Below are positions 34,360 to 36,502 of a stretch of 64,000 bases of DNA, piece after piece. This DNA is from an uncultured Eubacteriales bacterium. GTDB lineage: Bacteria > Bacillota > Clostridia > Peptostreptococcales > Anaerovoracaceae. Position 1 is the stretch's first letter; each line of letters opens with the position of its first letter. A program made the position numbers and the translations under genes. The notes below the pieces were generated by a model. That model was not told the origin of the DNA. It worked only from the letters and a program-made list of their open reading frames with translations, and did no database searches. The DNA is taken from assembly GCA_902775345.1 (NCBI GenBank), contig CACYLW010000005.1:36117-100116 (forward strand), read 5' to 3'.

Positions 34360-34908
34360 ATGGATTATAAGATGACTATCGCAGGCCTCGAGAGGCATCT
34401 GCCGCTCTGCAAGGTCACAGACGACCTGTATATTGCAGGTTTCATTATGTTCAATGATGTGGAGGTAACTGAGGCTGCAGCGCGCGAACTGCTTAAGCAG
34501 GCGCCTGAGTTCGATGTGCTCATCACTGCAGAGAGCAAAGGCATTCCACTGTGCTATGAGATGGCACGCCAGTCCGGAAAGCCTTACATCGTAGCCCGCA
34601 AGGGAGCAAAGCTTTACATGCAGGACGTAGTAAAAGTCCAGGTCAATTCGATCACCACAGACCACGTTCAGACACTCTGTCTCGGAAGAGACGAGAGGGA
34701 GCAGATCCAGGGCAAGCGCACCCTGATCGTCGATGACGTGATCAGCACCGGCGAATCCCTCGCTGCTCTTGAGACGCTGGTTGATACAGTCGGCGGACAG
34801 ATCGTAGGAAAGTTCACTGTTCTCGCTGAGGGCGAGGCTGCTGACCGCACCGATATCACATATCTCGAGTATCTGCCTCTCTTCAATTCAGACGGCACAC
34901 CGCAATAA
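34360..34908 (+). CDS. Type I phosphoribosyltransferase (adenine/xanthine PRT-like)
   Basis: A 182-residue enzyme of the purine salvage PRT family. The PRPP-binding motif is TLIVDDVISTGESLAAL, preceded by the flexible catalytic region (KPYIVARKGAKLYMQ) and the early loop LITAESKGIPLCYEMAR, which resembles the E-S/A-R-G segment of Apt and the regulatory PRTs. It would join a purine base to PRPP; the base cannot be assigned with certainty. It is a single-gene unit with its own extended -10 promoter and strong terminator. Confidence 0.85.
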   Translation: MDYKMTIAGLERHLPLCKVTDDLYIAGFIMFNDVEVTEAAARELLKQAPEFDVLITAESKGIPLCYEMARQSGKPYIVARKGAKLYMQDVVKVQVNSITTDHVQTLCLGRDEREQIQGKRTLIVDDVISTGESLAALETLVDTVGGQIVGKFTVLAEGEAADRTDITYLEYLPLFNSDGTPQ

Positions 34909-34937
34909 CTTAAAAGAGCAATACAATACGATTATCA

Positions 34938-34968
34938 GCCTCCCGGACGGGAGGCTTTTCTCTTTTTT
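34938..34968 (+). terminator. Rho-independent terminator of the phosphoribosyltransferase gene
   Basis: GCCTCCC (34938-34944) and GGGAGGC (34949-34955) flank GGAC, followed by TTTTCTCTTTTTT. Confidence 0.93.
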
Positions 34969-34996
34969 GGTCAAAAAAACGATTGTTTTGTATAAT
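34967..34996 (+). promoter_or_regulatory. Possible upstream promoter of the liv region
   Basis: TTGGTC (34967-34972), an 18-base spacer and a perfect TATAAT (34991-34996). It overlaps the tail of the preceding terminator and lies 73 bases upstream of the stronger promoter at 35041-35069, so the liv region may have tandem promoters. Confidence 0.5.
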
Positions 34997-35040: not shown

Positions 35041-35069
35041 TTGACACACAATCTTCACAATACTATAAT
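35041..35069 (+). promoter_or_regulatory. Perfect consensus sigma-70 promoter of the liv region
   Basis: TTGACA (35041-35046), exactly 17 bases, TATAAT (35064-35069): every consensus base matches. Transcription should begin near 35076, giving a leader of about 260 bases before livJ. Nothing else in the window matches consensus this closely. Confidence 0.93.
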
Positions 35070-35073
35070 CGCA

Positions 35074-35098
35074 CTGTACACAAAACCTGTGCACAAAA
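35074..35098 (+). repeat. Pair of near-identical 12-bp direct repeats at the liv transcription start
   Basis: CTGTACACAAAA (35074-35085) and CTGTGCACAAAA (35087-35098) differ at one base and are 13 bases apart, covering the predicted start site and the region before the leader ORF's RBS. This is the position of a repressor operator, although no regulator is known. Confidence 0.45.
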
Positions 35099-35107
35099 GG
35101 AGACCAT

Positions 35108-35194
35108 ATGTACTTTAGTTCAAGCCTTATCGTCATCGGTATTATCGGCGTCCTTCTGGTCGTAAGACTGGTAGAGGGCGATGTTATGCTGTAG
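35108..35194 (+). CDS. 28-residue Leu/Ile/Val-rich small protein or leader peptide upstream of livJ
   Basis: A short ORF too small for usual gene finders. AAGGAG (35097-35102) stands 5 bases before ATG 35108, and the perfect promoter lies just upstream, so translation is likely. It reads M-Y-F-S-S-S, a hydrophobic core (LIVIGIIGVLLVVRLV), then EGDVML and TAG. Fifteen of 28 residues are Leu, Ile or Val, the amino acids the downstream importer carries, as in ilv leader peptides. The same composition would suit a one-helix membrane microprotein or a type I toxin. A stem-loop follows 37 bases after the stop. Which role applies cannot be decided from sequence. Confidence 0.6.
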   Translation: MYFSSSLIVIGIIGVLLVVRLVEGDVML

Positions 35195-35209
35195 GGCGAT
35201 AGAGTGCAC

Positions 35210-35271
35210 AAGGTCGAAACCTTAAGCCTGGAAGCCCGCAGCAATGCGGGCTTATTAAATGCCCGGGCTTA
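35210..35271 (+). promoter_or_regulatory. Structured leader RNA between the small ORF and livJ
   Basis: Three pairings are possible: AAGGT-CGAA-ACCTT (35210-35223); AAGCCCGCA (35232-35240) with TGCGGGCTT (35245-35253) around a GCAA tetraloop; and TAAGCCTGG (35223-35231) with CCGGGCTTA (35263-35271), with one G-T pair, which could enclose the second stem. CGGGCTTA occurs twice, so AAGCCCG could also pair with the distal copy (35264-35270) instead of the near one. The T run is poor, so it is not a standard terminator; attenuation or RNA processing are options. Confidence 0.45.
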
Positions 35272-35335
35272 GGTGAAAGCAACTATCAACTAACACTCAG
35301 TCAGATATCGTTTAATCAGAAAGGGAGAAAACAAA

Positions 35336-36502
35336 ATGAAAAAGACATGGACAAAGGTCGTAGTTGTGGCACTCTCCTGCATGATGGCATTCGTAATGGC
35401 ATCTTGCGGCGGTGGCGGCGGAAGCAGTGATGCAGAGGGCGGCGCTCTCCACATCGGCGTTATCGGACCTTTCACCGGCGGAGCTGCTCTTTACGGAACA
35501 GCAGTTAAGAATGGTGCTGAGCTCGCAGTAAACGAGATCAACGCAAACAATCCTGATGGCCTGCAGCTCGTAATGGATGCTCAGGACGACGAGCACGATG
35601 CTGAGAAATCAGTTAACGCTTACAACAAGCTCGTTGATGACGGAATGCAGGTTCTCATAGGACCTACAACTTCAACACCGGCTACAGCAGTAGCAGCAGA
35701 AGCTGACGCTAACAGAACATTCCTGCTCACACCATCCGGTTCTTCACCTGACGTAACTGCAGGACACGACAACGTATTCCAGCTTTGCTTCTCTGACCCT
35801 AACCAGGGAATCGCCAGTGCTGAATACATGGCAGCAAACTTTGCTGATGCCAAGGTAGGCGTTATCTACAAGAACGACGACAACTACTCAACAGGAATCT
35901 ACAATAAGTTCAATGCAGAGTGGGAAGCTCAGGGCAAGAAGGTCGTAGCAGCAGAAACATTCACTGATGGTGTTACAGACTTCAGCGCTCAGCTCAACAG
36001 CCTTAAGAATGCCGGTGCAGATCTGGTGTTCCTGCCAATCTACTATGATGCAGCATCGAACATCCTCACACAGGCAGACAAGATGGGATATGCTCCGAAG
36101 TTCTTCGGATGTGACGGCATGGACGGAATCCTCTCAATGGAAGGATTCGATACATCTCTCGCAGAGGGACTCATGCTTCTGACACCGTTCACACCATACT
36201 CAGAAGATGCTAAGTCAAAGGCATTCACAGAGGCATATCAGGAAGCATACGGCGAGCTGCCGATCCAGTTCGCAGCTGACTCCTATGACTGTGTATACGC
36301 AATCTATGATGCATTCCAGAAGACTGGCCTTGATGCAAGCGCAAGCATGGCAGACATCTGCGAAGCACTGATCGCTCAGTTCACAGGCGACTTCGTTGCA
36401 AGCGGTATCACAGCCGACGAGATGAAGTGGAACGCTAACGGCGAAGTTGAAAAGACTCCGAAGGTTTGCGAGATCCAGGACGGCAAGTATGTTGAAAAGT
36501 AA
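35336..36502 (+). CDS. livJ: Branched-chain amino acid ABC transporter, substrate-binding lipoprotein
   Basis: A 388-residue lipoprotein. The signal peptide ends in the lipobox VMASC, followed by a Gly5-Ser2 linker. The mature domain begins LHIGVIGPFTGGAALYG and contains LIGPTTSTPATAVAAEA, FLLTPSGSSPDV, FQLCFSDPNQGIASAEYMA and FAADSYDCVYAI, all typical of periplasmic-binding fold type I Leu/Ile/Val-binding proteins (the Ser/Thr loop binds the amino-acid head group). Exact substrate range is unknown. The RBS GAAAGGGAG is strong. It is first of the livJHMGF operon and is separated from livH by strong hairpins. Confidence 0.95.
   Translation: MKKTWTKVVVVALSCMMAFVMASCGGGGGSSDAEGGALHIGVIGPFTGGAALYGTAVKNGAELAVNEINANNPDGLQLVMDAQDDEHDAEKSVNAYNKLVDDGMQVLIGPTTSTPATAVAAEADANRTFLLTPSGSSPDVTAGHDNVFQLCFSDPNQGIASAEYMAANFADAKVGVIYKNDDNYSTGIYNKFNAEWEAQGKKVVAAETFTDGVTDFSAQLNSLKNAGADLVFLPIYYDAASNILTQADKMGYAPKFFGCDGMDGILSMEGFDTSLAEGLMLLTPFTPYSEDAKSKAFTEAYQEAYGELPIQFAADSYDCVYAIYDAFQKTGLDASASMADICEALIAQFTGDFVASGITADEMKWNANGEVEKTPKVCEIQDGKYVEK

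Follow-up and report, generated by a model that had tools for sequence, protein, structure and literature searches.

A probable ribosome-mediated attenuator ahead of a branched-chain amino acid importer operon in a genus of Clostridia

The window (the whole stretch of 64 kb that was analyzed) carries, ahead of a livJ-like gene, a short ORF rich in Leu, Ile, and Val codons and a set of RNA strands that can pair in two mutually exclusive ways. We hold it very probable that this leader is a ribosome-mediated transcription attenuator that adjusts expression of a branched-chain amino acid (BCAA) ABC importer to how much charged tRNA is available for Leu, Ile, and Val, the ORF being most likely the starvation sensor. 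The first-pass annotation had raised attenuation as one reading of the sequence; the parts of the switch, the conserved reading frame, and the recurrence of such leaders before livJ in other genera all support it.

Results

The locus and its promoter

The window belongs to a 2.25-Mb genome in 26 contigs. Its nearest livJ relatives among named records include MAGs of uncultured Clostridiales and of Mogibacterium, two of which come from the gut of goat and sheep; Mogibacterium is placed by the NCBI taxonomy in Anaerovoracaceae, Peptostreptococcales, presumably also the family of the window. Upstream of the leader lie an adenine-phosphoribosyltransferase-like gene (34360–34908, profile match) and, after it, a terminator-like site (34937–34956). 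The promoter, of the sigma-70 type (35041–35069, forward strand, as are livJ and all leader features below), is as flawless as first described: TTGACA-N17-TATAAT agrees with the consensus at 12/12 positions, has a 17-nt spacer, and is the only exact match in 64 kb (two matches with at most one mismatch, 0.26 expected). In relatives the -35 element and usually the spacer are kept, and the -10 element is often altered at one or two positions. With up to three mismatches allowed, the whole promoter motif occurs once genome-wide. The spacer (35047–35063, CACAATCTTCACAATAC) shows strong conservation across most clade leaders (exceptions: L019, L022, and L026) and may be an operator. A second promoter-like site, TGGTCA-N17-TATAAT (34968–34996, 10/12), stands between the preceding terminator and the main promoter.

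The leader is followed, as the first-pass annotation had it, by livJ of a BCAA importer. The livJ-like substrate-binding protein (35336–36502), encoded by the first gene of the controlled operon, matches Peripla_BP_6 (E = 2e-48) and also, below the cut-off, the LIV-binding subfamily model NF011933; a BPD_transp_2 permease comes next, and a second permease and two ATPases were recognized by eye among the ORFs further downstream. From the LIV-binding-protein-like gene and the branched-chain permease, the operon is predicted to handle Leu, Ile, and Val.

A conserved leader ORF

The leader RBS (AAAAGGAG, 35095–35102) is a purine-rich, AAAGGAGA-like element in the alignment of relatives. The well-placed RBS and the 28-codon ORF behind it (35108–35194; ATG at 35108, TAG at 35192–35194) are present as claimed, the encoded peptide being MYFSSSLIVIGIIGVLLVVRLVEGDVML, with L, I, or V at 15 of its 28 residues. 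Relative to F, A, M, W, and C, the share of LIV is 0.73 in whole leader peptides, 0.57 in LivH, and 0.56 in LivM; in the densest 21-mers it is 0.91 for leader 21-mers, which were picked for LIV, against 0.65 for 14 hydrophobic 21-mers of membrane proteins in the window.

DNA matching 35070–35340 was found in 37 of the 47 genomes of the genus, and the leader RNA (35075–35335) folds better than its shuffles (z = -4.1). As to whether relatives carry the ORF at all, the ORF, its RBS, and its reading frame are conserved in them. The 35 aligned leaders have two insertion positions inside the ORF, each of 3 nt, and the only other indel there is a 1-nt deletion in the last stop-codon column of L015, which could equally be placed just past the stop; of the 46 indel events that the same leaders show 3′ of the ORF, 11 are multiples of 3. 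The clade peptide is well conserved (MYF...IVIS/GII..VLLV.RLVE), with pN/pS = 0.64 (31 of 37 rows, the six with in-frame insertions or early stops being left out of the codon comparison), and codons GTC, CTT, GTC, and AGA are invariant even at synonymous positions (31/31 each). In L017/L018 the stop TAG has become CAG and the ORF is three codons longer, with the nucleotides of antiterminator strand 2 (below) retained; in L028 and L031 the ORF ends early, at codon 25, yet the DNA ATGCTGTAGGGC or GTGCTGTAGGGC is retained. The indel pattern, together with stops that moved while strand 2 was kept, indicates that the frame of the ORF is apparently under selection, and the nucleotides at its end appear, from the alignment, to be kept for something other than the peptide.

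Mutually exclusive antiterminator and terminator helices

The first-pass annotation had described the ORF as lacking strong pairing with the stems that follow it, and this is refuted by our analysis. Strand 2 (UGCUGUAGGGC, 35187–35197), the 5′ arm of an antiterminator lying across the stop codon, forms ten pairs with one bulged A (UGCUGUaGGGC) with strand 3 (GCCCGCAGCA, 35234–35243; RNAalifold and pairing counts). Strand 3 is at the same time the 5′ arm of a terminator-like hairpin predicted by folding (AGCCCGCA-GCAA-UGCGGGCU, strands 3:4, 35233–35252), so that pairing of strand 2 excludes hairpin 3:4; the GC-rich stems with alternative pairing that had been described are thus, by computation, mutually exclusive. 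Folding also gives an outer stem around the hairpin (35220–35231 with 35262–35273), whose changes in relatives look compensated by eye.

The antiterminator duplex of the window has an energy of -17.4 kcal/mol, and 1% of shuffles are as good. The alignment with relatives that had been proposed as a check shows the pairing conserved: among 35 distinct leaders, 98.6% of cells are paired (slid controls: 22–49%), a level reached by one of 500 shuffles, and none of the 500 reached the observed covariation score or the doubly changed cells. Two pairs have changes on both sides (reached by 20/500 shuffles), and there are five further pair types (38/500). The double changes are G-C to U-A in L034/L037 and U-A to C-G in L032 and may represent as few as two events; a U-G pair is C-G in L017/L018, and five of the ten pairs never vary.

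Two further helices would involve the ORF. RNAalifold gives a possible but weak closing helix P1 (UGUACUU, 35109–35115, with GAGUGCA, 35202–35208; 95.9% paired), and strand 1 (CGGUAU, 35137–35142) can pair, again weakly (94.8%), with 35186–35191 of strand 2 when no ribosome is present. The protector fold P1–P5, which encloses the ORF, is 96.5% paired and shows no covariation beyond shuffles, so that a hold on strand 2 in the absence of a ribosome is put forward as a suggestion.

Applying a ribosome mask, we computed how probable the antiterminator is while the growing transcript reaches only as far as strand 3. With no ribosome the window's leader has a probability of 0.17; an A site at codons 1–23 gives about 0.8, and a ribosome at the stop gives 0.01. 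Averaged over 29 leaders, the probability is 0.48 with no ribosome and 0.27 with one at the stop, and for positions within the ORF it is 0.77 at LIV codons against 0.61 at the others. Probability at LIV codons exceeds that at the stop by more than 0.2 in 27/29 leaders and that without a ribosome by the same margin in only 15/29. Since non-LIV codons (0.61) come near LIV codons (0.77), the mask shows dependence on ribosome position, not on codon identity. When four leaders were folded at equilibrium with the hairpin complete, the terminator was favored in the window's own leader (at most ribosome positions), G160_AT, and G005, and the antiterminator only in G002, at about codons 8–24. With the terminator favored at equilibrium once strand 4 is present, the switch must be kinetic, decided during RNA synthesis, as is the choice of fold in other attenuators.

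We infer the translation, stalling, and termination steps as follows. Transcription would begin at the promoter and a ribosome would engage the leader ORF. A shortage of Leu, Ile, or Val would stall it in the run of such codons, leaving strand 2 free to pair with strand 3 ahead of the synthesis of strand 4; this 2:3 pairing would block hairpin 3:4, and livJ would be transcribed. If supply is ample, the ribosome would reach the stop codon and cover strand 2, hairpin 3:4 would form, and transcription would end early. In an untranslated leader, strand 2 may be occupied by strand 1 or P1, in which case hairpin 3:4 would form too.

A hairpin without a U-run

The stem had been described as lacking a good T run, which is true: its tail is TTATTAAAT, an A/U-only stretch (UUAUUAAAU, 35252–35260) in place of a U-run. 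The 9-nt tail is all A/T in 26/35 clade leaders and at least 8/9 A/T in 34/35. Within 12 nt starting 3 nt before the hairpin end, the best 8-nt stretch of the 35 clade leaders has 3–5 T (mean 3.9) and the longest T run is 1–3, whereas 28 leaders from outside the clade have 5–7 T (mean 6.5) and runs of 3–7, a comparison that is partly circular because most of the 28 were found by requiring T-rich tails. The leaders of G002 and of the G160 aminotransferase-like gene (below) were found by covariance model R1, which carries no such requirement. Judged as intrinsic terminators (a GC-rich hairpin followed by a U-run), the 35 clade leaders have the hairpin and lack the U-run. Compared with attenuators of the intrinsic-terminator type (ilv, leu, and trp), the window's leader accordingly has the leader ORF, the target genes, and the exclusive antiterminator, but not the U-run.

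Beyond the tail lies a conserved, C-rich and G-poor block that is specific to the clade (CAACTATCAACTAACACTCAGTCAG, 35280–35304) and is a candidate for Rho loading or another signal. It resembles CAACTATCAACTATCACTCAGTCAG, with the core ATCAAC-TA in 31/35 clade leaders and a looser core in 35/35; both cores are absent from the 28 other leaders (0/28). From hairpin to Shine–Dalgarno (SD) site, the C/G ratio is 1.21 in the 35 clade leaders and 0.63 in 25 others. Rho is encoded in the genome (562.8 bits, above the cut-off). Insertions after the hairpin also occur: L011, L013, and L015 have an extra GC-rich one of about 45 nt (GCATTGCAACAAGGAGGG-like) between hairpin and block, and L023, L033, L035, L036, and others have different ones. 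With the U-run missing and a conserved block after the hairpin, the stopping step may be Rho-dependent or otherwise noncanonical; in the clade, termination would be either weak intrinsic termination on the A/U tract or Rho-assisted. A tentative elaboration, which we think possible but rather doubtful, is that the clade converted an intrinsic-terminator attenuator into one without a U-run, keeping hairpin and antiterminator nearly unchanged and moving the stop signal to 35280–35304, for instance to a Rho-loading site exposed or hidden according to the position of the leader ribosome.

Leaders in other lineages

Homologues of livJ (E ≤ 1e-40) were found in 86 of the 349 family genomes. Thirty-six of these are genus members matched by R1, and the other 50 yielded 48 upstream regions, G337 and G037 (= L027) being cut by contig ends. 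In 28 of these 48 regions outside the window's clade (27/40 + 1/8; 2/3 in the same genus and 26/45 in other genera) we detected a LIV-rich ORF preceded by a purine-rich RBS and, downstream, a hairpin whose tail is T-rich, and 20 failed; the controls for the 40 regions passed in 0/200 shuffles and 1/40 reverse complements. The pass rate was 27/33 where LivJ shares at least 50% identity with the window's (two of the six misses, G045 and G329, have <160 nt of upstream sequence) and 1/15 below 50%. The peptides outside the clade are LIV-rich and differ in sequence, with 27 to 74 residues (e.g., MTVLTNLLIVISIIIIVLGIIKDDICYVVR and MTATATNITVRPAAETAVDFVVVLRLLAPILRIAGIVRRIVLLGVARSIE), and the hairpin with its T-rich tail occupies the corresponding place. 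Leu/Ile/Val richness is thus kept while the peptides differ between genera.

Complementarity between the ORF end and the 5′ arm of the hairpin extends in these lineages up to 13 and 14 pairs (G161 and G109, respectively). Among 28 rows chosen for having ORF and hairpin, those within a genus not being independent and G002 not being included, the duplex was matched by at most 5% of shuffles in 15 and by more than 5% in 13, six of which were matched by more than half (G281, G284, G297, G299, G300, and G129). The mean duplex energy was -14.6 kcal/mol for own pairs and -10.6 kcal/mol for swapped pairs; swapped pairs were as good as own pairs in 14% of cases for the window and in 34% for G002, a diverged leader found by R1 with the tail TTTTTCTT.

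Searched with the covariance model, 38/349 family and 23/393 order genomes matched, comprising one genus and G160. Among the 40 genus genomes with livJ, 36 match R1, G004/G005 have diverged leaders, and G037/G045 are cut by contig ends; among the seven without a livJ match, the leader occurs only in G042, whose contig ends shortly past it. In G160, of another genus, a LIV-rich leader ORF and a terminator with the tail TTTATTTTT precede an aminotransferase-like gene (L077:326–415 and 503–1831), whose best NCBIfam model is PRK08593, below the cut-off; we take it to be of class III, and its leader suggests a BCAA-linked enzyme.

The livJ relatives in named records (80 loci, two of them too short) gave 2 passes among 78 upstream regions, with 0/156 for shuffles and 0 for reverse complements. 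Five of the 78 (L162–L166) belong to the window's genus, of which L162 passes and the other four fail; in the remaining 73, mostly from other families, only L215 passes, which looks like chance. A stricter detector, of uncalibrated sensitivity, passed 1/78. That a LIV-rich ORF and a terminator recur before BCAA-related genes while the peptide changes is expected under attenuation but not for a microprotein.

Discussion

Three other accounts of the leader have to be weighed against attenuation. The ORF might encode a membrane microprotein with one helix that functions in the importer, the RNA structure being incidental, and the hydrophobic peptide, well conserved within the clade at the pN/pS given above, is what one would then expect. 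This account leaves the antiterminator/terminator architecture unexplained, however, and the strand DNA is kept in L028 and L031 despite their early stops. Because the LIV-rich peptides diverge between genera while several clade codons are invariant even synonymously, a microprotein as sole explanation is unlikely, and we consider it very improbable. A riboswitch binding a branched-chain amino acid or related metabolite, with a conserved core translatable by accident, would agree with the strong sequence conservation and the compact predicted fold, and a Streptomyces “livJ motif” is listed among strong riboswitch candidates in the part of that survey available to us (PMC11109978). Yet here it is the ORF, RBS, and frame that are conserved, P1–P5 lack covariation beyond shuffles, and in other genera the LIV-rich ORF and the terminator persist although the conserved sequence is absent. 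Nor did any of 4227 Rfam families match in the window at gathering score, all permissive matches over the region being below gathering (Trp_leader, 19 vs. 41 bits); we give the riboswitch very little credence.

The leader might, alternatively, act on translation by gating the SD site of livJ instead of termination, for which the ermC leader is a precedent in the portion of the source seen (PMC2965389) and with which the missing U-run of the clade would fit. Predicted SD accessibility, however, is 0.62 in the terminator and 0.59 in the antiterminator state (mean of 35; largest single-sequence difference 0.28). Being nearly equal in both modeled states, it does not support SD sequestration as the output, and a translational attenuator seems to us quite unlikely. 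A T-box (RF00230) at the leader was considered and dropped, with no Rfam match to it in the window.

Elsewhere in the same genome, two T-box matches below gathering (73 and 67 bits) lie on L160 and L161, contigs other than that of the liv operon. The genome also has an ilv-leu biosynthesis operon (L244:5203–16967, ilvD over the cut-off), with no Rfam match upstream, and a simple scan, which skipped ORFs inside longer same-strand ORFs, found it to have no leader ORF rich in LIV; import and synthesis may therefore be controlled differently.

Leader-peptide attenuation has mostly been described for biosynthesis operons, and in Clostridia T-boxes are the expected solution. The E. coli ilv and leu attenuators resemble the window's leader in their four-strand logic and in having control codons close to strand 1, but belong to Proteobacteria, control biosynthesis, and have strong U-runs. 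BCAA leader-peptide attenuators have already been reported in Firmicutes for ilv operons, as far as the portions of the sources seen go (PMC5864092, PMC5794164). Rli60 of Listeria monocytogenes, the ilv-leu attenuator, which has been mutated at its RBS and start codon and for which super-attenuator mutants are described, resembles our leader in its Firmicute host, BCAA-rich leader peptide, 2:3 antiterminator, and 3:4 terminator; it differs in having a 13-aa peptide and a biosynthesis operon and in being experimentally tested, whereas the window's 28-aa peptide precedes an import operon, its hairpin has no U-run, and the case is a computed one (PMC5864092, in part). The leucine-rich attenuator of Staphylococcus aureus ilvD likewise has a BCAA-rich leader peptide, of 26 aa, with a hairpin 52 nt past the stop, but controls biosynthesis and has a poly-U tail sequestered in the antiterminator fold (PMC5794164, in part). 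The Corynebacterium ilvB uORF motif pairs a LIV-rich uORF with an antiterminator complementary to the terminator, which is intrinsic, in Actinobacteria, and before ilvB; the Streptomyces livJ motif also precedes LIV-binding-protein genes, but its SD is predicted in a P1 bulge and no leader ORF is mentioned in the excerpt available (both PMC11109978). Also lacking a standard intrinsic terminator are the Mycobacterium cys leader peptides, possibly Rho-dependent like E. coli tna, although they control cysteine operons and have no conserved hairpin, that of the window being nearly invariant (PMC1262725, in part). Firmicutes leader peptides were noted in 2010 for hisS paralogues in a paper whose main text does not contain the whole words “liv,” “ilv,” or “branched-chain” (PMC2965389, in part). 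Our literature search, whose reach excluded most subscription journals, turned up no leader-peptide attenuator described for a liv importer in Clostridia.

Related leaders are numerous, some with a U-run and some lacking one, and offer a natural comparative set for studying what makes a terminator hairpin work and by what routes attenuators exchange one means of stopping for another. They also caution that a conserved “structured RNA” or “microprotein” ahead of an amino acid operon may be a leader peptide. Since such leaders precede importer genes in several genera of a single family, import would there be tuned directly to tRNA charging.
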